In this document: positions 37,701-52,588 of the stretch, piece after piece | How the letters are laid out: each line of letters begins with the position of its first letter | Numbering within the stretch: position 1 is the first letter of the stretch | From: Tatumella sp. JGM118 | GTDB lineage: Bacteria; Pseudomonadota; Gammaproteobacteria; Enterobacterales; Enterobacteriaceae | NCBI RefSeq assembly: GCF_018257515.1 | Contig: NZ_JAERJR010000002.1 | Location: forward strand, 186,001-250,000 | Direction: 5' to 3' | DNA: 64,000 nucleotides | Position numbers and translations under genes: made by a program | The notes under the pieces: model-generated | The model's database searches: none | What the model was told of the DNA's origin: nothing | Seen by the model: the letters and a program-made list of their open reading frames with translations, nothing else

Positions 37701-39173
37701 ATGCTGAGTTTTGATCCGGATAAAATTGATATCCCTGAAGGGAATTTTATTGGCGGCGAATACCTCAAAATGAAAGAGGGCAGTCTCGCGGTCAATCGTC
37801 CCTCAGATGGCAAAACTTATGCCTCACTGTCAGAAGCCGGAATTAACGACGTCGATGATGCGGTGAATATTGCCGAAAATGTCCGTCAGCAAAGTGGCTG
37901 GTCGGCCTGTTCCCCCCGTGAACGCGGTGCGGTGATGCGCCGCTGGGCCGATCTGATTGAGCAGGACAGCGAGTATTTAGGGCAACTGGAGGCGGCAGGA
38001 TCCACCCGCCCGGTGACGGAGGTGATGCAGCATGAAATCCCGTTTACTGCGGCGGCTATTCGCTTCTATGGTGAATGCGCCGACAAATTCAGTGGCGACC
38101 TGGTGCCAACCGCCAGCCACACTCTCGGCATGATCATTCCTGAGCCTTACGGGGTGGTCGGCGCGATCACTCCCTGGAACTTTCCATTATCGATGGCCTC
38201 CTGGAAATGCGGGCCGGCCCTGGCGGCGGGCAACGCCGTGGTACTGAAACCGTCTGAGCTGACCCCGTTTTCGACCGCCCGGATGGCAGAACTGGCCGTC
38301 AGGGCGGGGATCCCGGCCGGGGTGCTGAATATCGTTCAGGGGCGTGGTCATCTGACCGGCAGCGCGCTGGTGAAGCATCCGCTGGTCAGAAAAGTCTCCT
38401 TTACCGGGTCGACCGCCACCGGCGCACGGATAATGAGCGATGCGGCGATGCATGGTATGAAACCCGTCACCCTCGAACTGGGCGGCAAAAGTCCGCAACT
38501 GGTGTTCGATGATGCCGGGGACCCGCAAGCCATCGCACTGCGCATCTTCCGCGGATTTACCGCCAACGGCGGTCAGGCCTGTGTTGCCGGGACCCGGCTG
38601 ATCATTCAGCGGGGTATCGCGCCGGCGGTCACGGATCATCTTATCCGGTTATGCCGTCAGGTGACGCCGGGCAATACCTGGCTGGAAAGCAGCCGCTATT
38701 CCCCGTTAATCGATCAGCGTCAGGGCGAAAAAGTTGCCGGAATTGTGGCCCTCGCCCGGCAACAGGGGGCCGAGGTGCTGGCCGGCGGTGAGCGATTTGA
38801 CGCTACCGGCGAAGGCTGGTTTTACCAGCCCACGCTGCTCAGCAGGGTCAATGCCGGAAATTGCGCGGTGCAGGAAGAGATTTTTGGTCCGGTACTCACC
38901 CTGCAGTTGTTTGACGATGAAGAAGAAGGGCTTGCGCTGTGCCGGCACGAGATTTATGGCCTCTGTGCCGGCGTACATACCTCAAACCTGGCGGTCGCGA
39001 TGCGCGCCATAAAATCACTGGATGCCGGCACCGTCTGGGTCAATCGCTACGGCCGGAGCGGAGACTTCATTATTCCGACCGGCGGTTTTATGGGCTCCGG
39101 GATAGGTAAGGACCTGGGTAAGCAGGCTTTCCAGGCCTGTCAGCGGCAAAAAAGCGTTTTAATCGATTTCTAA
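37701..39173 (+). CDS. NAD(P)-dependent aldehyde dehydrogenase
   Basis: 490 residues. Oxidises an aldehyde to the acid. Visible: cofactor block ITPWNFPLSMASWKCGPALAAGN, LKPSELTP, SFTGSTATG, the general base Glu in LELGGKSP and the nucleophile Cys in NGGQACVAGTRL, then EEIFGPVLT. It most resembles the PuuC/betaine-aldehyde branch, acting on amino-aldehydes, which suits the amine oxidase genes beside it. First gene of the cluster, 60 bases after the predicted sigma-54 transcript start; weak AAAATAAAGG ribosome site. Confidence 0.93.
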   Translation: MLSFDPDKIDIPEGNFIGGEYLKMKEGSLAVNRPSDGKTYASLSEAGINDVDDAVNIAENVRQQSGWSACSPRERGAVMRRWADLIEQDSEYLGQLEAAGSTRPVTEVMQHEIPFTAAAIRFYGECADKFSGDLVPTASHTLGMIIPEPYGVVGAITPWNFPLSMASWKCGPALAAGNAVVLKPSELTPFSTARMAELAVRAGIPAGVLNIVQGRGHLTGSALVKHPLVRKVSFTGSTATGARIMSDAAMHGMKPVTLELGGKSPQLVFDDAGDPQAIALRIFRGFTANGGQACVAGTRLIIQRGIAPAVTDHLIRLCRQVTPGNTWLESSRYSPLIDQRQGEKVAGIVALARQQGAEVLAGGERFDATGEGWFYQPTLLSRVNAGNCAVQEEIFGPVLTLQLFDDEEEGLALCRHEIYGLCAGVHTSNLAVAMRAIKSLDAGTVWVNRYGRSGDFIIPTGGFMGSGIGKDLGKQAFQACQRQKSVLIDF

Positions 39174-39199
39174 CTCACTACCTCAAGCAGGAGAATATC

Positions 39200-39868
39200 A
39201 TGGGCGTTTTTAAACCTAAATTTATCACGTTTGATTGTTATGGCACGCTGATTAATTTCGATATGGCCGGGGCCGCCTCACGGCGATTCGCCGACAGAGT
39301 CCCGGCGGAGGTGATGCCTGCCTTTATCCGCGATTTCTCCTCCTACCGGCTGGATGAAGTTCTCGGGGCGTGGAAGCCCTACTACGATGTGGTCAGCCAG
39401 GCCCTGCAGCGTGCCTGCAGAAAGTGGGGCGTCGACTGGCAGCCGGCAGATACCGATTACATCTACAGCGACTGTGCCACCTGGGGGCCGCATCCGGATG
39501 TGCCGGAAGGGCTGGCGGTACTGGCGAAAGAATTCCCGTTAGTTCTGCTGACCAACTCTATGAAAGACCTGATCCCGCACCATATCCCCCGGCTGGGCGC
39601 GCCGATCCATATGGCGATCACCGCGGAAGAGACCGGTGCCTATAAGCCACATATGCAGGGCTTTGAATACATGCTGAATAAACTGGGCTGTGGTCCGGAA
39701 GAAATCCTGCACGTTTCCTCCAGCTTACGTTACGACCTGATGACGGCGGATGACCTGGGGATCACCCACAAAGTCTTTGTTAATCGCGGACATGAACCAG
39801 GTAATCCGGGCTACCGCTACACAGAAATCAATGGCATCAACGAACTGCCTGCGGTCGTTGGCATGTAA
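39200..39868 (+). CDS. HAD-family protein of the haloacid dehalogenase type II group
   Basis: 222 residues. Nucleophile D12 in TFDCYGTL, motif II LLTNSMKD, motif III Lys in GAYKPHMQGF and acidic motif IV region SSSLRYDLMTADDLG. True type II enzymes hydrolyse L-2-haloacids; members in amine-catabolic clusters may act as phosphatases or on other leaving groups, so the substrate is open. GCAGGAGAATATC precedes the ATG. It lies 26 bases after the aldehyde dehydrogenase and 15 before the flavoenzyme gene. Confidence 0.82.
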   Translation: MGVFKPKFITFDCYGTLINFDMAGAASRRFADRVPAEVMPAFIRDFSSYRLDEVLGAWKPYYDVVSQALQRACRKWGVDWQPADTDYIYSDCATWGPHPDVPEGLAVLAKEFPLVLLTNSMKDLIPHHIPRLGAPIHMAITAEETGAYKPHMQGFEYMLNKLGCGPEEILHVSSSLRYDLMTADDLGITHKVFVNRGHEPGNPGYRYTEINGINELPAVVGM

Positions 39869-39883
39869 ACCGGGAGCTGACTG

Positions 39884-41161
39884 ATGAAACTGGAATCTTT
39901 CTGGCAGGCCAATGCCCCGGTATTTAAAGGGGCAGCACAAACGCCTTTGCCTGAACGGGCGGATGTCGTGATCATCGGCGGAGGATTCAGCGGGATCTCT
40001 GCGGCCCGGAGTCTGGCGAAGCAGGGGATTGATGTCGTGGTGCTGGAAAAAAGCCGCATTATGAGCGAAGCCTCGGCCAGGAATGGCGGCCATTGCAACA
40101 GCGGTGTTGCTAAAAGCTTCGCCGACCTGGTGGCCAGAAAAGGACTGGAAAAAGCCTCTGAAATGTACCGCGCCTACGATGCTGCGGTGAATTATGTCAG
40201 CGGGATCGTTAAAGAGGAAGGCATTGACTGTGACTTCAGGTTTTGCGGAAAACTCAAGCTGGCCAGTAAACCGGCCCATTTCGACGGATTACGGGCAGCC
40301 TTTGAGCTGATGCGTAAAACGGTGGACCCGGAGATCGAGCTGATCTCCGCGGCAGACATTGGCCGGGAAATTGACAGCAAGGTGTTCCACGGTGGCTTGC
40401 TGCAACAGCGCGGCGCCAGTATGCATATGGGTAAGTTTGGGGTCGGTCTGGCAGAAGCCGCTGTCCGCCACGGCGCACGTATCTATGAGCATCACGCGGT
40501 CACGGCAATGACCCGCCTTTCCGGTCAGCGCCACCGGATTTCCACCGCCCGGGGGGAGATAGTTGCCGATAAAGTCTTACTGGCTACCGGCTGTTCATCT
40601 GACGGGCCTTTCCCCTGGGTACAGCGCCGTATCGTGCCGGTGGGCAGCTTTATTATTGTGACCGCGCCGCTGGCGCCGGATCTGCTGCACCGATTGCTGC
40701 CTCATGACCGTACCTACGTTAACTCAATGAATATCGGCAATTATTTCCGAACTACTGCCGATCACCGGCTGGTATTCGGTGGCCGGGCACGCTTTGCCAT
40801 CAGTAATCCGGCCTCAGACAGCCGTAGCGGAGAGATATTGCGCAGTGCGATGGGCAAGGTCTTTCCGGCACTGGCCTCTGCACCGGTGGATTACTGCTGG
40901 GGCGGGATGGTGGATATGAGTGCCGACAGGCTGCCTCATGCCGGCGAAGAAAACGGTGTGTATTACACCATGGGGTACAGCGGCCATGGCACACAGATGT
41001 CGGTGTGGATGGGGAATGTCATGGCAGACCTTATCAGCGGCCGCGCAGATAACAATCCCTGGAATGATAAACCCTGGGCCCCGGTGCCTGGCTATTTCGG
41101 CAAACCCTGGTTTCTGCCACTGACCGGGCTGTATTACAAAGCGAAAGATCGCCTGTTCTAA
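39884..41161 (+). CDS. FAD-dependent oxidoreductase of the DAO family (PuuB-like)
   Basis: 425 residues. N-terminal ADVVIIGGGFSGISAARSLAKQG binds FAD; SARNGGHCNSG is the covalent/close FAD region seen in PuuB/OrdL-type amine oxidases; C-terminal GYSGHGTQMSVWMG is typical of that group. These enzymes oxidise a C-N bond in a secondary amine or amino acid, yielding an aldehyde or oxo-acid plus the amine. With the aldehyde dehydrogenase two genes upstream it makes a two-step amine oxidation. Start supported by CCGGGAGCTG upstream. Confidence 0.88.
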   Translation: MKLESFWQANAPVFKGAAQTPLPERADVVIIGGGFSGISAARSLAKQGIDVVVLEKSRIMSEASARNGGHCNSGVAKSFADLVARKGLEKASEMYRAYDAAVNYVSGIVKEEGIDCDFRFCGKLKLASKPAHFDGLRAAFELMRKTVDPEIELISAADIGREIDSKVFHGGLLQQRGASMHMGKFGVGLAEAAVRHGARIYEHHAVTAMTRLSGQRHRISTARGEIVADKVLLATGCSSDGPFPWVQRRIVPVGSFIIVTAPLAPDLLHRLLPHDRTYVNSMNIGNYFRTTADHRLVFGGRARFAISNPASDSRSGEILRSAMGKVFPALASAPVDYCWGGMVDMSADRLPHAGEENGVYYTMGYSGHGTQMSVWMGNVMADLISGRADNNPWNDKPWAPVPGYFGKPWFLPLTGLYYKAKDRLF

Positions 41162-41190: not shown

Positions 41191-42795
41191 ATGAGCAAAG
41201 ATGATAAAGATTTTCCGAACCAGCATTCCTTAACACGTTCCCTGAACCGGGGATCACTTTCCCGGCGTGACCTGATCAAGCTCCTCTCTGTCGGTGCCGT
41301 GGTCGGCAGCGGTCTGCCAGGTTTCTCTGCCAGTGCCCTGGCGGCAGAAGTGCCGGTCAAAGGCGGCAAAATGCGGGCGGCGATGTCGAACTCGTCGGCG
41401 ACCGATACGCTGGACCCGGCGAAAGCCAATAACAGCGCAGACTATACCCGTCAGTTTATGTTTTATAACGGGTTAACCGAAATTAACCAGACATTAGTCG
41501 CCACACCGGCGCTGGCGACCGCACTGCAATCGGATGACGGCATTCGCTGGCAGATTACCCTGCGTAAAGGGGTCACCTTCCATAACGGTAAAAGCCTGAC
41601 CGCGGACGATGTTATCTGGTCTTTATCCCGGCATAAGGATCCTTCCGTCGCTTCCAGCGTGTTCAGCCTGGCGCAACAGTTTAAAACGCTGACCGCCGTC
41701 AATCCGCAGCAGGTCGAGATTGTCCTGCAGGGGCCGAATTTTGACCTGCCGCTGATGCTGGCGATGCCGGCGTTCCTGATCGTACCGGCAGAGACCACCG
41801 ATTTTAACAAAGGGATCGGCACCGGGCCGTTTATCTGTCAGGCGTTCACCCCCGGGCTGCATACGCTCGGAAAACGTAATCCCGGCTACTGGAAACCCGG
41901 ACTGCCTCATCTTGACGAAATCGAACTGCTGGGGGTCCCGGATCAGGCTGCCCGCGTTAACGGGCTGATGTCCGGTGATTTACATGTCTGTTCAGCGATC
42001 AGCGCGGACTATGCTCAGCGGTTAAAAAACAGTGGCGGTCAGTTTGGCGTGCTGGAAAGTAAATCGGGCATGTATACCGACCTGATTATCCGCACAGATA
42101 TCACCCCCGGCAAAAATGAAGATTTCGTGATGGCGATGAAATATCTCCAGCCGCGGGAGATGATGGTCAATACCGCGTTACTCGGCTACGGGACTCCCGG
42201 CAATGATACCCCCGTCCCGCCCTGGCACCCGCTTTATAATGCCGACCTTAAGCCACGGCCGATCGACACCGATAAAGCCCGCTTCTATCTGAAGAAAGCA
42301 GGCATGAGCGGGGCCAGTGTTGAAGTGGTTACCGCACCGACCCTGGACGGGGCCGTGGAAGGGGCCCTGATGATGCAGAATATTGCCCGTAACGCCGGTC
42401 TGAACATTAATGTGCGCCGCGTCCCTTATGAAGGCTACTGGTCGACACACTGGATGAAGGATCCTATCGGCTACGGATCCGTTAACCCGCGTCCCACGGT
42501 CGATCTGCTGTTTTCTCAGTTTTATCTCTCGACGGCAGCCAATAATGAATCGAAATGGCATAACCCGCAATTTGATCAGCTGGTAGTGGCCGCGCGCGCC
42601 GTTCGTGATCCGGCGAAGCGTAAACAGATGTACGGCGACATGCAGACGTTGATCTACAACCATTGCGGCACTCTGGTTCCCGCGTTTGTCAGTTCACTGG
42701 ATGGTTACAGCCACCGGGTGAAAGGGCTGTCATCCAGCCCGTCGGGCATGATGATGGGATACCGTTTCCACGAAAATGTGTGGCTGACCGCCTGA
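41191..42795 (+). CDS. ABC transporter substrate-binding protein, SBP_5 (dipeptide/oligopeptide) family, Tat-exported
   Basis: 534 residues. A twin-arginine signal (LSRRDLIKLLSVGAVVG) ends near LAAEVP. The mature part has the SBP_5 signature LRKGVTFHNGKSLTADDVIWSL and later RNPGYWKP and PYEGYWSTHWMKDPIGYG. It captures a peptide or similar solute in the periplasm for the two permeases that follow. Tat export is less common than Sec for this class and is a shared trait of binding proteins for amine-like solutes in some proteobacteria (recollection). ATG 41191 with GGAGAGAG upstream. Confidence 0.9.
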   Translation: MSKDDKDFPNQHSLTRSLNRGSLSRRDLIKLLSVGAVVGSGLPGFSASALAAEVPVKGGKMRAAMSNSSATDTLDPAKANNSADYTRQFMFYNGLTEINQTLVATPALATALQSDDGIRWQITLRKGVTFHNGKSLTADDVIWSLSRHKDPSVASSVFSLAQQFKTLTAVNPQQVEIVLQGPNFDLPLMLAMPAFLIVPAETTDFNKGIGTGPFICQAFTPGLHTLGKRNPGYWKPGLPHLDEIELLGVPDQAARVNGLMSGDLHVCSAISADYAQRLKNSGGQFGVLESKSGMYTDLIIRTDITPGKNEDFVMAMKYLQPREMMVNTALLGYGTPGNDTPVPPWHPLYNADLKPRPIDTDKARFYLKKAGMSGASVEVVTAPTLDGAVEGALMMQNIARNAGLNINVRRVPYEGYWSTHWMKDPIGYGSVNPRPTVDLLFSQFYLSTAANNESKWHNPQFDQLVVAARAVRDPAKRKQMYGDMQTLIYNHCGTLVPAFVSSLDGYSHRVKGLSSSPSGMMMGYRFHENVWLTA

Positions 42796-42812
42796 GTCAT
42801 AAGGAGAAGCCC

Positions 42813-43769
42813 ATGAACCGTTTTATGATGTTGCTGATCGCCCGACGGGTCGGGTCGGGCATTCTGACGCTGATCATCGTTTCTATGGTGGTGTTTTTTA
42901 TCACCAGTTTACTCCCCGGTGATGCTGCACAAATGATCCTCGGACAAAATGCGACACCTGAGACGGTGACGGCTTTACGCCACCAGTTAGGGCTGGATCA
43001 GCCCTTGCCGGTGCGCTATTACCACTGGTTTACCGGACTGATGCAGGGGAACTTCGGGCTCTCTTTCGCCAGCCGGTTACCGGTTTCTCAGCTGATTGCC
43101 TCGCGGATCCCGGCCACGCTCGAACTGGCCGCGGTCACCACCCTGGTCTCTGTCCCGCTGGCGCTGTTTATCGGTTTTACTGCCGCGATGCAGCGTGATA
43201 AGTGGATCGATAAGGCGCTGGTCACCTGCACTATGGCGACGGTCGCAGTGCCTGAGTTCCTGATAGCCACCGTCGCGGTGATGGTGTTTGCCGTCAGACT
43301 GCACTGGGTTTCCGCCATGTCGTTCGGCAGCCCGAATGTGGATTTGTTAAGTTTCATTCAGGCCTACGCGCTGCCGGTGCTGACTTTATGTTGTGTACTG
43401 ACGGCGCAGATGGCCAGGATGACACGTTCGGCAATTATCAGTCAGCTCGACAGCCCCTATGTGGAGATGGCGTTACTCAAAGGTGTCTCTCCGGCCAGAG
43501 CCGTGCTGCGCCATGCCTTGCCCAATGCGGCCGGGGCTATCGCGAATGCCATTTCCCTCAGCCTCTCTTACCTGTTTGGCGGCGTGATCATTATCGAGAC
43601 GATCTTTAATTATCCCGGACTGGCCAGTCAGCTGGTGGATGCGGTCAGTAACCGGGATCTGCCGGTGGTACAGGTCTGCGTCATGCTGTTTGCCGCCTGT
43701 TATCTGCTGTTGTTGCTGGTGGCGGACATCATCACTATCGCGTTTAACCCGAAGTGGAGGAGCTCATGA
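42813..43769 (+). CDS. ABC transporter permease, DppB type
   Basis: 318 residues, six spans. N-terminal RRVGSGILTLIIVSMVVFFITSLLPGD and LGLDQPLPVRYYHWFTGLMQGNFGLS are the DppB opening; EMALLKGVSPARAVLRHALPNA is the EAA loop contacting the ATPase. ATG 42813 has AAGGAGAAG 3-9 bases upstream; it follows the binding-protein gene by 17 bases and its stop overlaps the next ATG. Confidence 0.93.
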   Translation: MNRFMMLLIARRVGSGILTLIIVSMVVFFITSLLPGDAAQMILGQNATPETVTALRHQLGLDQPLPVRYYHWFTGLMQGNFGLSFASRLPVSQLIASRIPATLELAAVTTLVSVPLALFIGFTAAMQRDKWIDKALVTCTMATVAVPEFLIATVAVMVFAVRLHWVSAMSFGSPNVDLLSFIQAYALPVLTLCCVLTAQMARMTRSAIISQLDSPYVEMALLKGVSPARAVLRHALPNAAGAIANAISLSLSYLFGGVIIIETIFNYPGLASQLVDAVSNRDLPVVQVCVMLFAACYLLLLLVADIITIAFNPKWRSS

Positions 43770-44623
43770 AATACCTTTCCACCGCATGGTCTTTTTTTCA
43801 GTCGCTCCGGTTTTCCGGAAAGCTGGGGTTACTGATCACGTTGTTCTGGATAGTGATGGCGCTGGTGGGCAGTAACATCGCCCCGTATCCGGTGAATGAT
43901 ATCGGTGGCGGGCCACTGTTCAGCGGCTTTTCGGCCAGGTTCTGGCTGGGGACCGATTATCTGGGGCGCGATATCCTGACCCGCATCCTGTATGGCAGCC
44001 GCTATACGCTCGGGCTTGCCCTGACGGCGGCCGTACTGGCCAGTGCGGTGGGTACCTTACTGGCACTGCTGGCGGCGGTCAGTGGCCGCTGGCTGGAAGA
44101 GATCCTCGGACGGGTCAATGATGCCTTACTGGTTCTGCCGGGCAAGGTCTTGTCGCTGATGATTGTCGCCGTCTTTGGTTCATCGTTGCCGATGCTTATC
44201 ATCACGGCGGTATTTACCTACTGGCCCGGCGCTTACCGGATAGCCTTTGCTCTGGCAAGCCAGTTACGGACCATGGACTATGTCAGGGTGTCGCAGTTAC
44301 GCGGAGAAAGCCGGGCCTATATCGCGCTTTTTGAAATTCTGCCGAATATGATCCATCCGATGCTGGCAGATTTTGGCCTCAGATTTATTTATATCGTCCT
44401 GCTGCTGAGCGGGCTCAGCTTCCTGGGGCTGGGCGTACAGCCCCCCCAGGCCGACTGGGGCACGCTGGTCCGCGAAAACATGCAGGGATTATTTGACGGT
44501 TCACCGGCGGTCCTGATGCCGGCGCTGGCGATAGCCAGTCTGACCATCGGGGTTAACCTGTTTATTGACAGTCTGCAAAGCCGGCGTCCGGCGGCGCTGA
44601 CGCTGGCGAAGGAGGGGGTATGA
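43766..44623 (+). CDS. ABC transporter permease, DppC type
   Basis: 285 residues with a cytoplasmic N-terminus, six spans, FWLGTDYLGRDILTRILYGSR (DppC signature) and the EAA loop YVRVSQLRGESRAYIALFEILPNM. ATG 43766 overlaps the previous stop (ATGA); the next gene overlaps by 4 bases as well. Confidence 0.93.
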   Translation: MKYLSTAWSFFQSLRFSGKLGLLITLFWIVMALVGSNIAPYPVNDIGGGPLFSGFSARFWLGTDYLGRDILTRILYGSRYTLGLALTAAVLASAVGTLLALLAAVSGRWLEEILGRVNDALLVLPGKVLSLMIVAVFGSSLPMLIITAVFTYWPGAYRIAFALASQLRTMDYVRVSQLRGESRAYIALFEILPNMIHPMLADFGLRFIYIVLLLSGLSFLGLGVQPPQADWGTLVRENMQGLFDGSPAVLMPALAIASLTIGVNLFIDSLQSRRPAALTLAKEGV

Positions 44624-46290
44624 CAGTGTCTTTCTATCCTGAAAATGCGGTCGTGTCGGTGGATAACCTGCAGGTGTGTGCCATCAACCATGGCGTGGAA
44701 ACCGGACTGGTCAGCGGGATCAGTTTCTCAGTCAAAAAAGGTGAAGTACTGGCACTGATCGGTGAATCCGGCTCAGGCAAAACGACCATCGCCATGGCAC
44801 TGATGGGCTATGCCCGCCAGGGGTGCCGCGTCACCGAAGGAACGGTCCGGGTGGCAGGCAGTGATGTTCGTGCGTTGTCACCGGCACAATTACGGGCCTT
44901 TCGCGGGGATAAAGTGGCTTATATCGCGCAAAGTGCCGCCGCCTCGTTTAACCCGGGCATCAGGATTATCGACCAGGTCACCGAACCGGTGCTGATCCAC
45001 GGAAAAATGAGCAAAGCGCAGGCGCGGGAAAAAGCGATTGCGTTGTTCCGGGAGCTCGCCTTACCGGACCCGGAAACTATCGGTCAGCGCTATCCGCATC
45101 AGGTATCCGGCGGGCAGCTCCAGCGTTTAATGACGGCTATGGCTCTGATGGTTGACCCTGAGGTGATTATCCTCGATGAGCCGACCACCGCACTGGACGT
45201 GACTACCCAGGTGGAAGTGTTGAAACTGTTTCGCCGGATCGTCTCCGCACGGCAGATGACGGCCATTTATGTCAGCCATGATCTCGCGGTCGTCGCGCAG
45301 ATGGCGGACCAGATTATGGTTTTGCAGCGCGGAAAAATCGTCGAATACGGCCCTGCCGCACAACTGCTCAGCCATGCCACCCAGCCCTATACCCATCAGC
45401 TGATGGAGGCTGCACAGCAGGCAGAGCGGCCCGGCGGCTGGCGGCGGGATCACGGGGATGTGCATCCGTTACTGGAGGTGCGTGATTTGTGTGTCGGTTA
45501 CGGGCCACGGAATAATGAAGGTGTCCCGAAAATCCGCATCAGTGAGAATATACAGCTCAGGCTATGGAAGGGTCAGGCCGTGGGGATCATCGGTGAATCC
45601 GGGTCCGGCAAAACAACCCTGGCACAGGCCATCGCCGGCATTAATCCGGCCTGGTCCGGGCACCTGCTGTTTAATCATCATTACATATCCCGTGACCTCG
45701 GACAGCGCAGTCTGCAGGAGTTACAGCAGATACAGTATGTTTTTCAGATGGCGGACACGGCCCTGAATCCGGCACAGACCGTGGCCGCGATCTTAAGTCG
45801 TCCGTTACAGTACTTCTTTAAGCTGCGCGGGGAGGCACTGGAGCAGCGGATCTCGGAATTACTGGCGCTGGTCAGACTGCCGGAGTCCGTACGCCATCGC
45901 AAACCTGCTTCACTGTCAGGCGGTCAGAAGCAACGGGTCAATCTTGCCCGTGCGCTGGCCGCCAGGCCGGAAATCATCATCTGCGATGAAGTGACGTCAG
46001 CCCTGGACACCGTGGTGGCGGCAGCGATCCTGGACCTGATCGCCGACCTCAGACGCCGGTTTAATCTGTCGGTGTTGTTTATCAGCCATGATATGCATGC
46101 GATCCGGGCGGTATGCGATGACATTGTGGTGATGCAGCAAGGCAGAATTGTGACGCAGATTGCCGGAGAGGATTACGCAAAACCGTCCTCTGAACTCTAT
46201 TTTGAACGGCTGAAACGGGCTGTCCCGGAACTTCGCCAGGGCTGGCTGGATGACCATCAGGATGTCGTCAAAAGCGGTGTAACGGCTTAA
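44620..46290 (+). CDS. Fused dual ABC ATPase (DppD-DppF type, GsiA-like)
   Basis: 556 residues with two complete ATPase domains in one chain. Domain 1: Walker A GESGSGKTT, signature VSGGQLQRLM, Walker B VIILDEPTTALD, switch YVSHD. Domain 2: Walker A GESGSGKTT, signature LSGGQKQRVN, Walker B IIICDEVTSALD, switch FISHDMH. The fusion replaces separate DppD and DppF subunits. Completes a binding protein, two permeases and ATPase importer in overlapping genes. Confidence 0.93.
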   Translation: MTVSFYPENAVVSVDNLQVCAINHGVETGLVSGISFSVKKGEVLALIGESGSGKTTIAMALMGYARQGCRVTEGTVRVAGSDVRALSPAQLRAFRGDKVAYIAQSAAASFNPGIRIIDQVTEPVLIHGKMSKAQAREKAIALFRELALPDPETIGQRYPHQVSGGQLQRLMTAMALMVDPEVIILDEPTTALDVTTQVEVLKLFRRIVSARQMTAIYVSHDLAVVAQMADQIMVLQRGKIVEYGPAAQLLSHATQPYTHQLMEAAQQAERPGGWRRDHGDVHPLLEVRDLCVGYGPRNNEGVPKIRISENIQLRLWKGQAVGIIGESGSGKTTLAQAIAGINPAWSGHLLFNHHYISRDLGQRSLQELQQIQYVFQMADTALNPAQTVAAILSRPLQYFFKLRGEALEQRISELLALVRLPESVRHRKPASLSGGQKQRVNLARALAARPEIIICDEVTSALDTVVAAAILDLIADLRRRFNLSVLFISHDMHAIRAVCDDIVVMQQGRIVTQIAGEDYAKPSSELYFERLKRAVPELRQGWLDDHQDVVKSGVTA

Positions 46291-46307: not shown

Positions 46308-47639
46308 ATGCCCGCATTTATCAGATATGTACAGGACAGCGCCCATTTTCCGGAGAGCGCCGATGTGGTGATTATCGGCGCCGGTATCTCCGGTTCGGCG
46401 GCGGCCTGGGAATTAACCCGCAAGGGACTGAAGGTAGTGATCATCGAAAAAGGGCTGGTCGGGGCCGAACAATCCAGCCGTAACTGGGGCTGGTGTCGCC
46501 AGCAGAACCGCGATGAACGGGAGTTACCGTTGATCATTCATGCGTTACAGCGCTGGCAGGAACTGAATGCGGAAACCGGCGAAGAGCTCGGGTTCCGCCG
46601 CTCGGGGCTGGTGTATGCCAGCCGTGACCCGGCAGAAATTGCCGCCTGGGAAGACTGGGGAAAAATGGCCCGCAATTATGATATCCGCAGCCACATTCTC
46701 GACGCCGCCGGGGCGAAAGCCCTGACCCCGGGCAGCACGACATCCTGGCTGGGGGGCGTCCACTCACCCGACGACGGCTATGCGGACCCTTCACAGGCCG
46801 CCCCGGGACTGGTGATAGCGGCCCAGCGCCAGGGCGCGCAGGTGTTTCAGCAATGTGCGGTACGCGGTCTGGATATTTCTGCCGGTAAAGTCAGCGGCGT
46901 GATCACTGAGCGGGGACTGATCAAAACCCGGGCCGTGATCTGTGCCGCCGGGGTCTGGACCTCGCTATTTTGCCGCCGGCATGGCCTCGAATTGCCGCTG
47001 GGGAATGTGATAGGCACGGCTTTCCGTACCCATCCCATTGACCAGGTGGTGAAAGCACCGTTTTATACCGGCAGTTTCGCCTGCCGGCCACAGGCGGATG
47101 GCGGTTATACCGTCTCTGTCTCCGGGAAAGGGCGGCTGGAACCGGGTTTCCAGGGGCTGAAGTACAGCCGGCAGTTCCTTCAGACGTTCCGCGCACGCCG
47201 TAAAAATTTAACCGTCTCGCCGGGGTTGTCTGCGTTTATCCGCGGTCCGGAAACCCTGGCGCGCTGGTCAATGGAGGCGGTCTCACCGTTTGAGGCCGTC
47301 AGGATCCTCGATCCGCAAGCCGATCATGACATGGTCAGACAAGGGCTGGCGGCGATGGTCAAAGAATTTCCTGCCTTACAGGGGCTGCGTGTGTCACAGT
47401 CCTGGGGCGGGATGATAGACAGTACCCCGGATGCTATCCCGGTGATCTCAACCGTCAGGCAGATCCCGGGGCTGGTCCTTTCCGCCGGCTACAGCGGCCA
47501 CGGCTTCGGTATCGGTCCGGGCGCGGGCCGGCTGGCTGCCGATTTAGTGACCGGGGATACCCCGATTGTTGACCCCGCACCTTATCGCTACTCACGTCTG
47601 GTTGACGGCAGTGATCTTGATGCACCGGGAATGATGTAA
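46308..47639 (+). CDS. Second FAD-dependent oxidoreductase (DAO/DadA-like)
   Basis: 443 residues. ADVVIIGAGISGSAAAWELTRKG binds FAD, SRNWGWCRQQNRDERELPL follows where amine oxidases show SxRNGG, and the C-terminus has PVISTVRQIPGLVLSAGYSGHGFGIGPGAG. It differs strongly from the flavoenzyme at 39884 (SRNWGWC instead of ARNGGHC), so the two probably act on different C-N bonds. The start has CAGAGGATAATTTTTTC upstream. Confidence 0.88.
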   Translation: MPAFIRYVQDSAHFPESADVVIIGAGISGSAAAWELTRKGLKVVIIEKGLVGAEQSSRNWGWCRQQNRDERELPLIIHALQRWQELNAETGEELGFRRSGLVYASRDPAEIAAWEDWGKMARNYDIRSHILDAAGAKALTPGSTTSWLGGVHSPDDGYADPSQAAPGLVIAAQRQGAQVFQQCAVRGLDISAGKVSGVITERGLIKTRAVICAAGVWTSLFCRRHGLELPLGNVIGTAFRTHPIDQVVKAPFYTGSFACRPQADGGYTVSVSGKGRLEPGFQGLKYSRQFLQTFRARRKNLTVSPGLSAFIRGPETLARWSMEAVSPFEAVRILDPQADHDMVRQGLAAMVKEFPALQGLRVSQSWGGMIDSTPDAIPVISTVRQIPGLVLSAGYSGHGFGIGPGAGRLAADLVTGDTPIVDPAPYRYSRLVDGSDLDAPGMM

Positions 47640-47648
47640 GGAGAAAGA

Positions 47649-48494
47649 ATGAGCATTGTATTGCGTCAGATGAATGAAAACGATACGGAAACCGGCTACC
47701 AGCTGAGTCAGCAGGTGAAATGGCCCCACCGCCGGGAAGACTGGCTGCAGGCGTACCGGTTAGGGGAAGGGCTGGTGGCAACCGAGGCCGGTAAAACGGT
47801 CGGCTGTGCCCTGATCTGGCACTGGGGCGGATCTCATACCCTCGGGCTGGTGATTGTCGACCCTCTGTGTCAGGGGCGTGGCATCGGTAAATTATTGATG
47901 GAGGGGTTACTGGAGAAAGCGCCCGGGGGCATGGTCCGGCTACATGCAACCGAAATGGGTAAAGGTCTGTACGAAAAATACGGGTTCAGGCAGCAGTCAC
48001 CCATGCATCAGCATCAGTCAGCCTCTTTACCGCCGTTTCCGGCCGCGACCCTCGCGCCCGGGCAGCGGTTACGGGCGGCGACTGCCGATGATTTACCCCG
48101 TCTGATTGACTATGACTACAGTGCCCACGGATTACGGCGGACAGCACTGTATGAGGATTTAGCCGGCTCTGCAGAATTCATCACCGTACTGGAGAGCGGA
48201 GATGAGATGGCAGGCTTTGCTGTGGTCAGACGCTTTGGCCGGGGTTACGTGGTCGGTCCACTACTGGCCCGTGACGAAGCCGCCGCCAGAACCCTGTTCT
48301 GTGACTGTGCCGCCAGATTACAGGATGAATTTGTACGTATCGATACGCAGGGCGAATGGCCGTTCTCCCTCTGGCTGAAGGCTCAGGGGATGCCGGTGGT
48401 GGATGCACCGGTGATGATGATCCGTGGTACCCCCTGGCAGAAGCAGCCGGATGCCTTTCTCGATTTTGGACTATTTTCACAGGCGTTGGGCTAA
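47649..48494 (+). CDS. GNAT N-acetyltransferase, two-domain (YitH/HsaT-like)
   Basis: 281 residues. The N-terminal GNAT domain shows the acetyl-CoA loop VDPLCQGRGIGKLLMEGLL and the closing YEKYGFRQQSP. A second C-terminal domain of about 140 residues (FAVVRRFGRGYVVGPLLARD) corresponds to the Acetyltransf_18 type. It may acetylate an amine substrate or intermediate before the M20 amidohydrolase acts, or detoxify one. GGAGAAAG precedes the ATG; the stop overlaps the next start by one base. Confidence 0.85.
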   Translation: MSIVLRQMNENDTETGYQLSQQVKWPHRREDWLQAYRLGEGLVATEAGKTVGCALIWHWGGSHTLGLVIVDPLCQGRGIGKLLMEGLLEKAPGGMVRLHATEMGKGLYEKYGFRQQSPMHQHQSASLPPFPAATLAPGQRLRAATADDLPRLIDYDYSAHGLRRTALYEDLAGSAEFITVLESGDEMAGFAVVRRFGRGYVVGPLLARDEAAARTLFCDCAARLQDEFVRIDTQGEWPFSLWLKAQGMPVVDAPVMMIRGTPWQKQPDAFLDFGLFSQALG

Positions 48495-49420
48495 TGAGTA
48501 TTGTCTATTATTCAGATCAACAACGCGGCCTTATCTGGAAAGCCTGGCTGGCGGAGCACGCACCGGATCTGCCATTTTATCTCTGGCCTGAGACCGGCGA
48601 CCCGCAACAGGTCAGTTATCTGGTGACCTGGACGGTGCCGGAAAACCTGAGTGAGCGTTTCCCGAACCTGAAAGTGATTTTCTCGGTGGGCGCGGGGGCG
48701 GATCAGTTTGATTATTCCCGTCTGCCCCCGGACGTCCGCGTCGTCAGGATGATTGAACCTGGCATCGCACAAAGTATGACGGCGTATATCACTTTCTCGG
48801 TACTGGCGCTGCACCGTGAAATACCGATGTATCTTCGCCAGCAGCAAAATAGGGAATGGAAAAAAGGACGGATCCTTCCGACAGAGACCCGTCGGGTCGG
48901 TATTATGGGGCTGGGGACTCTGGGGGAGGCCGCCGCCCGGCAACTGCTTTCTCTGGGGTTTCACTGTTCAGGCTGGAGCCGGACACCGAAGTCGGTCAGC
49001 GGGGTGACCTGCTGGTCGGGCGATGATCAGCTGCAGCCATTTCTGGCAGAGAGTGACATCCTGGTTTGCCTGTTACCGCTGACTTCCCGTACCCGCGGTA
49101 TACTCAACAGCGATGTCTTTCATCAGTTACCGGCGGGGGCCGGGCTGATTCATGCCGGTCGGGGTCAGCAACTCAATCATCAGGATTTGCTGGCCGCACT
49201 GGACAGCGGCCAGCTCAGTCAGGCGATTGTGGATGTCACCGACCCGGAGCCCTTACCGGAAGATCATCCGTTCTGGACGCATCCGGCGCTCTGGTTAACC
49301 CCGCATATCGCCAGCGAAACGCAACCGGAAACCTCGGTCAGGGTATTACTGGAAAATATCCGCTGTCATCAGCGGGGAGAGCCGATAGCAGGCCTGATCG
49401 ATCCGCAACGGGGGTATTAG
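48494..49420 (+). CDS. D-isomer-specific 2-hydroxyacid dehydrogenase (GhrA-like)
   Basis: 308 residues (E. coli GhrA 312). NAD(P) loop VGIMGLGTLGEAAARQL, catalytic Arg in HAGRGQQLN, Glu in DVTDPEPLPEDHP and His in LTPHIAS are all present. Interconverts 2-oxo acids such as glyoxylate or hydroxypyruvate with hydroxyacids. In this cluster it may reduce the oxo-acid left after amine oxidation. Confidence 0.9.
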   Translation: MSIVYYSDQQRGLIWKAWLAEHAPDLPFYLWPETGDPQQVSYLVTWTVPENLSERFPNLKVIFSVGAGADQFDYSRLPPDVRVVRMIEPGIAQSMTAYITFSVLALHREIPMYLRQQQNREWKKGRILPTETRRVGIMGLGTLGEAAARQLLSLGFHCSGWSRTPKSVSGVTCWSGDDQLQPFLAESDILVCLLPLTSRTRGILNSDVFHQLPAGAGLIHAGRGQQLNHQDLLAALDSGQLSQAIVDVTDPEPLPEDHPFWTHPALWLTPHIASETQPETSVRVLLENIRCHQRGEPIAGLIDPQRGY

Positions 49421-49424
49421 TGCA

Positions 49425-50555
49425 ATGACGACAGACAAATGGCGACAGCTCCGGCAAAGGCTGCATCAGCATCCTGAAACCGGCTTTAAAGAGTTTCAGA
49501 CCTCAGAGATCATCGCTGACCAGCTGAATCGTCTGGGGATAGAGGTTTACCGGAATATCGGTAAGACCGGCGTGGTCGGTCTGCTGAAGGGGCGTGACGG
49601 GCCGCGGATGATTGGTTTGCGCGCCGATATGGACGCCTTACCGATGAATGACGAGGGGAAACAGCCCTGGGCCAGCCGGCAGCCGGGGGTAGCCCATGCC
49701 TGCGGGCATGACGGACATACGGTGATGCTGCTGGCCGCTGCCGAAGCCCTGGCGGCGGAACCGGACTTTACCGGCAGCGTCTGCTTTATATTTCAGCCGG
49801 CAGAGGAGGGACTGGCCGGGGCCAGAGCGATGATCGAAGACGGTCTGTTTGAACGATTCCCGTGCGATGCCGTATACGCTATCCATAACTGGCCGGAATT
49901 ACCGGCCGGGGAGTTCCGTAGCCGGGCCGGGCCGATCATGGCTGCCGGTGACCGGTTTGATATCACCCTCAGCGGGACCGGAGGACATGCGGCGCAGCCT
50001 CACCTGACCCATGATACGTTACTGGCGATCAGTGAACTGGTGGTGGCGCTGAATACCCTGGTCTCACGGGCATTAGCGCCCTATGAACCGGCGGTATTGA
50101 CGGTGACCCGGATTCAGGGCGGGCATTCGCATAATATGATCCCCTCAGAGGCCTCGATCACCGGTACGGTCCGCACGTTCAGCCCCGGGGCGCAGGACAT
50201 TATCGAGCGCCAGTTACGGCAGATGACCGGACATATCAGTGCGGCCCACGGGCTGACGGCTGAGGTGAATTACCTTCGTTATTATCCGGCCACCTGCAAC
50301 AGTGCCCGGGAAGCCGGAATCGCTCTGCAGGCTGCAAAAGCCATCGGCCTGTCCACAGAAACTGCGGAATACCCGGCGCTGACCTCTGAAGACTTCTCCT
50401 TTATGTTGCAGCAAAAACCGGGGGCCTATGTCTGGCTGGGCTCGGGTCCCGGCCCGGCATTACATCAGGCAGAATATGATTTCAATGATGACGTGATCCC
50501 CTATGGTGTCCGCTGGTGGCGGCAGCTGGTCGCGCTCGAGCTGGGCGGAGAATAG
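49425..50555 (+). CDS. M20-family amidohydrolase (HipO type)
   Basis: 376 residues. Metal site HACGHDGH, FQPAEEG, IHNWPELP and SEDFSFML are complete; RADMDALP is present. It hydrolyses the amide bond of an N-acyl amino acid or dipeptide-like compound. It starts 4 bases after the hydroxyacid dehydrogenase stop. The paralogue at 29405 shares order and length but is clearly diverged. Inside the cluster it most likely opens the imported compound. Confidence 0.92.
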   Translation: MTTDKWRQLRQRLHQHPETGFKEFQTSEIIADQLNRLGIEVYRNIGKTGVVGLLKGRDGPRMIGLRADMDALPMNDEGKQPWASRQPGVAHACGHDGHTVMLLAAAEALAAEPDFTGSVCFIFQPAEEGLAGARAMIEDGLFERFPCDAVYAIHNWPELPAGEFRSRAGPIMAAGDRFDITLSGTGGHAAQPHLTHDTLLAISELVVALNTLVSRALAPYEPAVLTVTRIQGGHSHNMIPSEASITGTVRTFSPGAQDIIERQLRQMTGHISAAHGLTAEVNYLRYYPATCNSAREAGIALQAAKAIGLSTETAEYPALTSEDFSFMLQQKPGAYVWLGSGPGPALHQAEYDFNDDVIPYGVRWWRQLVALELGGE

Positions 50556-50673: not shown

Positions 50674-51963
50674 ATGAGCGAAGTAATGACCGACTTTCAG
50701 GCCAGTAATGAGCACTGGCTGGATGCGCACCACAGAGAAATTCCCGCCGGACTCCTGACCGCCCATCGGCTGGTGATCGAAAAGGGCCGCGGGGCCGAGG
50801 TGTGGGATGTCGAGGGCAGCCGTTATCTCGATTTTGCGGGCGGAAGCGGGGGACTGAATGTCGGGCATAATCACCCGGCCGTCGTCTCGGCCATTACCCG
50901 GCAACTGAACGAATTCACCGGTGACTGCTTTCGTGTGGCGGCCAGCCCCGCGTATATCCGTCTGGCCTGCCGGCTTAATCAGCTGGTGGGTGACGGCGAG
51001 GCTTTTCAGACGGTGTTCTTTAATTCCGGGGCTGACGCGATGGCGCAGGCGATTAACAGCGCCCGCGCGTTTACCGGACGTCACGGTATCATCACCTTCG
51101 AGGGGGCGTCTCATGGTCATTCTCTGGCAGACTGCCGGCTGACCAGCCATAGTCCGCCCGGGCAGGCGGATTCAGCACAAGGGGCCAGCGATATCCGTTC
51201 ACTGCCGTATCCGGATATTTCCAGAGGGATTACGGAAGCAGACTGCAGGGCGGCCCTGCAACACTGTCTGCGGGGCGGAGACCAGGCCGGTGCCGCGATT
51301 CTTCTGGAGCCTGTTCAGGGGGAGGGGGGGATCATCCCGGCCCCGGCCTCGTTTATTCAGTACCTGCAGCGGATATGCAGGCAGTACGGTATGTTACTGA
51401 TTTGCGATGAACTGCAGAGCGGTTTTGGTCGCACCGGCGAGATGTTTGCTTATCAGCAGTCAGGGATCAGGCCGGATCTGGTGATCAGCGGAAATTCCGG
51501 CGCAGGGTTACCGATAATGGCCGTTACCGGGCGTACCGCGGTGATGAGTGCCCCCCGGCCGGTCAGTCCTCAGGGGGGAAGTGTCCTGGCCTGTGCTGCC
51601 GCACTGGCGGTCCTGGATGTCCTGGGTAAGGAAGACCTGCTGAACCGCAGTCTGATGCTGGGTGAACGGTTGTATCAGCGGTTAGTACAAATGCGCGAAA
51701 AATATGCCTGCCTGCGGTATGTGCGTGGTCGCGGTCTGATGCTGGCGGTCGAAATCATTAACCCCGAGACCGGTAAACGGGATGCCGCGCTGGCGCAGGC
51801 TATTCTGGATGCGGCCTGTATCGAAGGATTATTGCTGATCCGTTGCGGAATAACCCGGAATGTTATCCGGTTTCTGGCGCCGCTGGTCACCACCAACGCC
51901 CAGCTGGAAGAAGCCTTTCACCTGTTCGAACTCGCGCTGGCCCGGGCAACAGGGAGGTTATAA
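50674..51963 (+). CDS. Class III aminotransferase homologue lacking the PLP lysine
   Basis: 429 residues with the class III fold: NVGHNHPAVVSAI, FFNSGADAMAQAINSARAFTGR, D245-E246 in ICDELQSGFGRTG, and GRGLMLAVEI. Several active-site positions are abnormal. Where the family has the PLP-binding Lys before G-G-x-P, this protein has GNSGAGLP with N274 (AAT at 51493-51495). The aromatic residue before HG that stacks on PLP is S146 (GASHG). The GGT[FY]GGNP phosphate loop is shortened to QGGSVLA (300-306). I infer it cannot perform standard transamination and may be a binding or structural pseudoenzyme. It lies 118 bases after the M20 gene. Confidence 0.8.
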   Translation: MSEVMTDFQASNEHWLDAHHREIPAGLLTAHRLVIEKGRGAEVWDVEGSRYLDFAGGSGGLNVGHNHPAVVSAITRQLNEFTGDCFRVAASPAYIRLACRLNQLVGDGEAFQTVFFNSGADAMAQAINSARAFTGRHGIITFEGASHGHSLADCRLTSHSPPGQADSAQGASDIRSLPYPDISRGITEADCRAALQHCLRGGDQAGAAILLEPVQGEGGIIPAPASFIQYLQRICRQYGMLLICDELQSGFGRTGEMFAYQQSGIRPDLVISGNSGAGLPIMAVTGRTAVMSAPRPVSPQGGSVLACAAALAVLDVLGKEDLLNRSLMLGERLYQRLVQMREKYACLRYVRGRGLMLAVEIINPETGKRDAALAQAILDAACIEGLLLIRCGITRNVIRFLAPLVTTNAQLEEAFHLFELALARATGRL

Positions 51964-52060: not shown

Positions 52061-52588
52061 ATGAACGGCTTACTGAAACTGGATCGCCTGGATATTGCTA
52101 TTCTTTCACACCTGCAAAAAGACGGGCGGATCAGTAATGTGAATCTGGCCGAGGCGGTAGGGTTATCTCCCAGCCCCTGTCTGCAACGGGTAAAACGGCT
52201 GGAAGCCGCCGGATTTATTGCCGGCTATGAGGCCCATATTAATCTGGCGAAAATCACCGGGTCGGTCAGCGTTTTTACCGAAGTGACGCTGGCCGGACAC
52301 CGTCGGGAAGACTTTCAGCGTTTTGAGCAGCGTTTAGCGCAGGTCAGAGAAATCATGGAATGCCATGTGATCACCGGGGGATACGATTACCTGCTACGTT
52401 TTATGACCCGCAGCATTGAGCACTACCAGCAGGTGATTGAGGGATTACTGGATGATGATATCGGAATCGAAAAATACTTCAGTTATATCGTGATTAAATC
52501 ACCGATCCTCAAAAGCAGTATGCCGTTGCAAGATCTGCTGGGACATCCGGAAAAGGCGGATAACGAGGAAAGCCCTGCCGGCCGCTAA
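52061..52588 (+). CDS. Lrp/AsnC family transcriptional regulator
   Basis: 175 residues. N-terminal helix-turn-helix KLDRLDIAILSHLQKDGRISNVNLAEAVGLSPSPC, then the RAM ligand domain with ITGGYDYLLRF. A C-terminal tail of about 20 residues is longer than usual. It probably senses an amino acid or amine from the cluster. It is 97 bases after the aminotransferase homologue and ends at a hairpin that closes the cluster. Confidence 0.92.
   Translation: MNGLLKLDRLDIAILSHLQKDGRISNVNLAEAVGLSPSPCLQRVKRLEAAGFIAGYEAHINLAKITGSVSVFTEVTLAGHRREDFQRFEQRLAQVREIMECHVITGGYDYLLRFMTRSIEHYQQVIEGLLDDDIGIEKYFSYIVIKSPILKSSMPLQDLLGHPEKADNEESPAGR

Follow-up and report, generated by a model that had tools for sequence, protein, structure and literature searches.

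A class III aminotransferase homologue lacking its PLP lysine in Tatumella, probably retained as a pseudo-transaminase

The window, a 64,000-nucleotide stretch of DNA from Tatumella sp. JGM118, carries on its plus strand, as do all window features given below, a class III aminotransferase homologue that lacks the PLP lysine (50674..51963). This gene is probably a retained pseudo-transaminase of single origin. In the explanation we favour, an ordinary GabT/PuuE-like class III aminotransferase belonging to an uptake-and-catabolism operon lost its PLP lysine and its Thr-bearing phosphate loop once, after which the fold, as modelled, was kept and purifying selection, as judged from dN/dS, continued. 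Loss of the PLP lysine followed by continued selection presents a clean natural case of the passage from enzyme to pseudoenzyme. Lys-bearing orthologues are present in the same operon of two other Tatumella species, which makes the states before and after the loss directly comparable.

Family membership and fold

The ORF at 50674-51963 encodes 429 amino acids in frame, with no internal stops, and the gene is intact as described in the initial annotation. A profile search scored it at 305.2 bits against PF00202, the class III aminotransferase family, above the curated cut-off of 30.5 and over the full length (profile positions 11-403 of 403); the protein of T. ptyseos scores 311 bits against the same profile. 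The top NCBIfam matches, TIGR00700 and NF005692, are models of 4-aminobutyrate transaminases, and both score under their cut-offs (335.1 against 506.65 and 345.4 against 724 bits, respectively), so the protein does not qualify as a GabT equivalog. Among solved structures, PuuE and GabT come closest in sequence. With E. coli GabT and PuuE-type enzymes (1sf2, 7jh3, 6wj8) the protein shares its fold and length and, along almost the entire chain, 37-38% identity; it also retains the ring Asp, Gln and His and the substrate Arg. It differs from them by loss of the Lys, of the Thr in the loop and of the residues matching Ile50 and Arg141. This is a warning for annotation: the Pfam class III profile fits, at ten times its cut-off, a protein that very probably does not work as a transaminase.

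Fold modelling, proposed as a check in the initial annotation, gave an intact class III fold. The model of the window protein, built from a 27-row alignment, reached pLDDT 83.2 and pTM 0.86, and was superposed on GabT (1sf2) with Z 48.4 and rmsd 2.5 over 407 residues. The alignment of 27 rows adds relatives from viral contigs, and the model leans mostly on distant relatives; the model obtained from the two Asn-bearing proteins alone has pLDDT 32.6. Some of the stretches modelled less well (151-170, 291-300 and 81-90) coincide with or lie near the stretches of accelerated change described below. The model supports, without deciding, that the fold was kept while the active site was lost.

Loss of the PLP lysine

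Sites were assigned by aligning the protein with GabT, and the roles of residues such as I50, R141, E211, R398 and T297 are those we take from GabT structures. HMMER aligns N274 of the window protein (codon AAT, 51493..51495) with K268 of E. coli GabT (1sf2), and in the MAFFT alignment this column holds Lys in all 15 orthologues and in two paralogues from the same genome. The alignment with GabT that had been suggested thus bears out the first reading of Asn at the position of the catalytic lysine. T. ptyseos has Asn in the same column, and both Asn-bearing proteins lack one residue directly downstream of N274/S275 compared with the 15 orthologues. Looking for the same Asn in orthologous clusters, another check proposed at the outset, therefore succeeded in T. 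ptyseos but not in the 15 orthologues, all of which carry Lys. To the set of orthologues an order-wide search of 394 genomes contributed just two, both Lys-bearing. The 17-protein count excludes L001 (the window), L010 and L033 (the T. ptyseos genome again).

A different lysine in the PLP site had been named as the finding that would speak against this assignment. Alignment revealed none there, and no substitute at the PLP column was found among all lysines of the window protein (37, 319, 343 and 368) or of the T. ptyseos protein (37, 345 and 370). At the three columns where the two proteins share a lysine, the 15 orthologues that possess the PLP lysine also have mostly Lys or Arg (at 343, all Lys), and the shared lysines are for this reason no likely substitutes. 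Judged by alignment, not by an experimental structure, the window protein has no PLP Schiff-base lysine. Lysine loss was also considered in two paralogues of the same genome, L003 and L008, where A and L are printed at the column. This is an alignment slip, as a lysine is located within 1-2 residues (SKAVGG, AKGLGGG), and these paralogues were not scored as lysine losses.

Phosphate loop and other site residues

In class III enzymes the phosphate loop is cross-subunit, and its Thr is supplied to the site by the partner subunit. In the window protein this loop (V297-S303, VSPQGGS; 51562..51582) is three residues shorter than in 15/15 orthologues and has lost T-Y in the alignment: residues 300-306 read QGGSVLA, and the 15 orthologues have PGGLGGTYGGNALA at that place. 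The T. ptyseos protein shows the same three-residue shortening and also lacks the Thr, so that the shortened loop noticed in the initial annotation is common to both species.

Other changes concern Ser58 (50845..50847), located at the GabT Ile50 position, where both Asn-bearing species carry the change (I58S), and the segment Ser146-His147-Gly148-His149 (51109..51120), in which the equivalent of GabT Arg141 is lost (H149 in the window, Ser in T. ptyseos). At position 146, for which the loss of the PLP-stacking aromatic had been claimed, Ser is real in the window protein but T. ptyseos retains Phe, so this was not part of an ancestral coordinated loss. Of the three coordinated losses proposed, two (Asn274 and the loop) are thus common to both species and Ser146 is not, while the losses at S58 and at the Arg141 position had been omitted.

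The residues that hold the cofactor ring are preserved. Asp contacts the pyridine nitrogen and Gln contacts O3' in class III enzymes, and the corresponding D245 and Q248 (Asp245-Glu-Leu-Gln248; 51406..51417) are invariant in 19/19 alignment rows. Both Asn-bearing proteins retain, in addition to these two, Gly119-Ala120, His147, Glu212 and Arg399. Retention of site residues could stem from fold stability alone.

Origin and distribution of the Asn-bearing form

The search for close relatives returned a single locus, that of T. ptyseos ATCC 33301, whose protein is 86% identical to the window protein. In the tree, the two Asn-bearing proteins form one group (support 100/100), which a split supported at 97/91 places with two other Tatumella orthologues, a placement taken from the tree without outgroups, as 11 of 16 inner forks are open when two distant outgroups are added. 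From this grouping beside Tatumella orthologues it follows that divergence of the pair most likely postdates the loss. All 15 Lys-bearing orthologues, two of which come from other Tatumella, keep both the Lys and the loop. From alignment and tree, with the Asn state known from two species only, there was a single loss of Lys and loop, in the ancestor that the window species shares with T. ptyseos. A different source of the gene, through transfer or a paralogue taking its place, was rejected in view of the tree (split 97/91, on the Tatumella side) and the syntenic operon.

Compared with the Lys-bearing orthologues from Tatumella, the Klebsiella plasmid and other family members, the window protein has the same gene order around it in the six regions read (one of them without the M20 gene) and 54-58% identity, but it differs from them in lacking the Lys and the GGLGGTYGGN loop, which they keep in 15/15 cases. 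Among six genomes of Tatumella (Erwiniaceae) searched, that of the window included, two yielded the GabT paralogue alone at the threshold applied.

A sequencing or assembly error here has a negligible probability, and nothing found speaks for it. The same Asn and both deletions are found in the independent T. ptyseos record (L009), and N274 and the deletions are therefore inherited and not errors, an argument that does not extend to the window-only S146.

Excess change at invariant columns

The 15 Lys-bearing orthologues are invariant at 228 columns. Of these, 62 are altered in both Asn-bearing proteins; the window protein alone differs at 10 and that of T. ptyseos alone at 12. A leave-one-out control gave 0-7 changes for each of the 15 orthologues. 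Altered columns are densest at 151-180 (10/17) and 271-300 (12/22), and sparse at 241-270 (0/15) and 361-390 (1/13). With a smaller reference set, 77/268 reference-invariant columns (28.7%) are altered in both species, 72 of the 77 to the same residue. For seven other operon genes of the same two genomes (perm1, perm2, atp, gnat, hadh, m20 and lrp; five or six reference species each) the proportion altered in both is 1.7-4.8%. Values for had (21.2%), fad1 (11.9%) and sbp (5.9%) are based on one to three references only and are not comparable. The column count leaves out aldh and fad2, and gene copies whose coverage of the window query is below 90% entered neither the rate nor the column counts.

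Selection after the loss

Divergence between the window species and T. ptyseos (the crown) gave dN/dS 0.173 in a codon likelihood model, with dN/dS of 1 rejected (2dlnL 118). Pairwise estimates for the same two species are 0.16-0.17 (NG86/YN00), the highest of 11 genes compared, followed by perm2 (0.106-0.119) and lrp (0.105-0.137). NG86/YN00 were mostly undefined for pairs beyond these two, and our own codon likelihood model was used instead. Six pooled neighbour genes have a crown dN/dS of 0.074, which makes that of the aminotransferase about twice as high. This raised ratio, along with the 22 columns changed in a single species, indicates at the level of sequence a constraint weaker than that on a working enzyme.

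A model with three classes fits better than a single ratio (lnL -5446.15 vs -5454.35). With free branch lengths, dN/dS on the stem is 0.14, compared with 0.155 for m20, 0.152 for lrp and 0.136 for the pooled neighbours. When synonymous lengths are fixed to those of the neighbours it becomes 0.40, with a worse fit (lnL -5457.6 vs -5446.2). We are unsure of the stem value; taken by itself, the ratio estimated with free lengths does not stand out. The stem is a long branch, 1.87 vs 0.34-1.75 in five neighbours, and since the ratio on it is not raised, the burst shows up as the number of altered conserved columns, not as a higher dN/dS on the stem.

Neutral evolution was simulated with point changes only, along two branches of 0.2 changes/site. 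Identity had a mean of 0.455 and a maximum of 0.515, compared with 0.86 observed, and 9/2000 single branches of 0.2 changes/site were free of stop. Low dN/dS and identity far above neutral together indicate that the gene is constrained, below the level of a working enzyme yet far from neutrality. Loss of a catalytic residue, with frame and purifying selection kept across species, as in a pseudoenzyme, is found here in two species only. The opinion that the gene is a pseudoenzyme and not a product of decay, put forward in the initial annotation, gains support from the same loss in the second species, from the rejection of dN/dS of 1 and from identity above the neutral maximum.

Slow decay is rather unlikely as an alternative. 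It supposes that the enzyme became dispensable, that the site was lost under relaxed selection, and that the frame lasts through lag and through the need of the downstream regulator for read-through. It would accommodate the crown dN/dS above that of the neighbours, the extra site changes in a single species, such as S146, and the absence of the gene, at the threshold used, from 2/6 Tatumella genomes. The frameshift of fad2 in T. ptyseos also agrees with it and counts against a retained pseudo-transaminase, since the operon there may be in trouble. The need for read-through would, however, preserve frame and not hold dN/dS at 0.17, and conserved stretches such as 241-270, along with the rejected ratio of 1 and the point-change simulation, which never reached the observed identity, argue against decay.

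Operon and neighbouring genes

Gene families suggest that the operon serves amine or amino-acid uptake and catabolism. It starts with an aldehyde dehydrogenase, a HAD hydrolase and a further DAO-family oxidoreductase (37701..41161), which follow the same order in L029 and L033. Next come the genes of an ABC transporter with a family 5 solute-binding protein, two permeases and a double ATPase (41191..46290), the permeases being named by synteny from the annotation of L028, and a DAO-family FAD oxidoreductase, fad2 (46308..47639), intact in the window. They are followed by a GNAT acetyltransferase (47649..48494), a GhrA-like D-2-hydroxyacid dehydrogenase (48494..49420), an M20 amidohydrolase (49425..50555) and, downstream of the aminotransferase homologue, an Lrp/AsnC-type regulator (52061..52588) that is also found beside Lys-bearing versions.

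The order from transporter to regulator is the same around Lys-bearing versions in all six regions read (G087 without M20). These are G200, G201, G146, G087 and G064, the last three being other genomes of the family, and the Klebsiella plasmid; several of the six are cut by the extent of the stretch compared. The idea of a role with the Lrp-type regulator, raised in the initial annotation, found no specific support: lrp adjoins Lys-bearing versions in the six regions, and 2/118 of its reference-invariant columns are altered in both Asn-bearing species, which means no matching change.

Operon copies differ in some details. In T. ptyseos ATCC 33301, a frameshift splits fad2 into two overlapping ORFs (L009:3640-4972), which may be a sequencing error. 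The best match to fad2 in G146 (L031:7245-8668) spans only residues 129-443 of the fad2 product of the window, and this copy may be interrupted too. G087 (L032:4519-4948) has no M20 match separating the hydroxyacid dehydrogenase from the aminotransferase, in contrast to the other operon copies read. An IncFIB Klebsiella pneumoniae plasmid carries this catabolic operon near IS elements (L028:1-10957), its aminotransferase being Lys-bearing. Relatives were detected in 22 plasmid records, 14 of them typed as conjugative (tblastn, E 1e-80); the site was read in H1 only.

GabT paralogue in the same genome

The genome that contains the window also encodes a Lys-bearing GabT paralogue with 39% identity to the window protein. 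This paralogue, with Lys and loop kept, is present in all six Tatumella searched, the relatives showing 38-40% identity. The copies of the window species and of T. ptyseos are 98% identical, and no burst was detected: among the 328 columns that do not vary in four other Tatumella, four are altered in both species. The Lys-bearing GabT may cover the lost reaction.

The window protein might alternatively be a non-catalytic subunit paired with an active aminotransferase, for instance its own GabT, in the way LCB1 is paired with LCB2 in serine palmitoyltransferase. We consider this quite improbable. A Lys-bearing GabT is at hand in each of the six Tatumella, but a heterodimer with it would predict a matching change, which the four altered columns do not show, and the window protein would not supply the loop Thr that class III sites take from their partner. 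The precedent itself comes from LCB1/SPTLC1, which according to the source is not thought to bind cofactor and is important for complex stability (PMC5519370). It is likewise a relative of PLP enzymes, and differs from the window protein in belonging to another aminotransferase class, in being eukaryotic and in having a known partner.

Possible roles of the retained protein

By established class III chemistry, a protein without the lysine would be incapable of forming the internal aldimine and of normal transamination. The class III lysine has the same role in water and proton steps as that of classes I, II and IV. Its participation in these steps is described for class I, II and IV enzymes (PMC9309667). 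Ordinary transamination by the window protein is very unlikely because, as far as sequence can tell, there is no lysine and hence no internal aldimine, and the lysine also serves the water and proton steps. The available record of 5m4d, a K241A mutant of a class III racemase, describes a site holding an external aldimine, and ligand binding therefore appears to be still possible after the lysine is lost.

We propose that the retained pseudo-transaminase would act as a dimer which keeps much of the half-site for a small ligand (S/T-Gly119-Ala120, His147, Glu212, Asp245, Gln248 and Arg399) and binds an amino or keto acid of the pathway. The ligand might be held with or without free PLP/PMP, and the protein could serve as a buffer, chaperone or modulator for neighbouring enzymes. 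If the gene is a pseudo-transaminase, a ligand-binding or modulatory job is quite possible, falling just short of probable; a scaffold, or a partner of another enzyme, is a possibility we hold with less confidence, and residual lysine-independent chemistry is unlikely. In a bolder and unlikely form of the proposal, the dead transaminase would be a dedicated modulator: by non-covalent binding of an amino or keto acid of the pathway, or of its PLP adduct, it would tune neighbouring enzymes or the regulator of the operon. If true, a modulator of this kind would be the class III parallel, in bacteria, to PLP-fold pseudoenzymes already known, and Lys-bearing orthologues from the same genus are available for comparison.

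There is a slim chance that the protein, in place of being a pseudo-transaminase, catalyses a new reaction in which PMP or an external aldimine is used, no Schiff-base lysine is needed and another residue acts as the base. Retained D245, Q248, H147 and Arg399 would be consistent with this, as would the external aldimine in the 5m4d mutant, so far as its record goes; the Thr-bearing phosphate loop and the Arg141 position are lost, however, and the replacement residue, Asn, is a poor base.

Retained aminotransferase relatives without the ancestral activity have been described. Yeast ScAlt2 has lost alanine transaminase activity and still forms the Schiff base (PMC5960717). The window protein would resemble ScAlt2 in being retained without the ancestral activity, and differs in being class III, bacterial and without the lysine. 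Among the open-access papers listed in our search, none dealt, by title or the start of the abstract, with the window protein or with a class III pseudo-transaminase.

Among more distant class III relatives, an IMG/VR contig (L066:1001-2113) has GDK at the PLP lysine, where other rows of its type have GKK. The sequence points to a possible second loss of the lysine, or to use of the next lysine.
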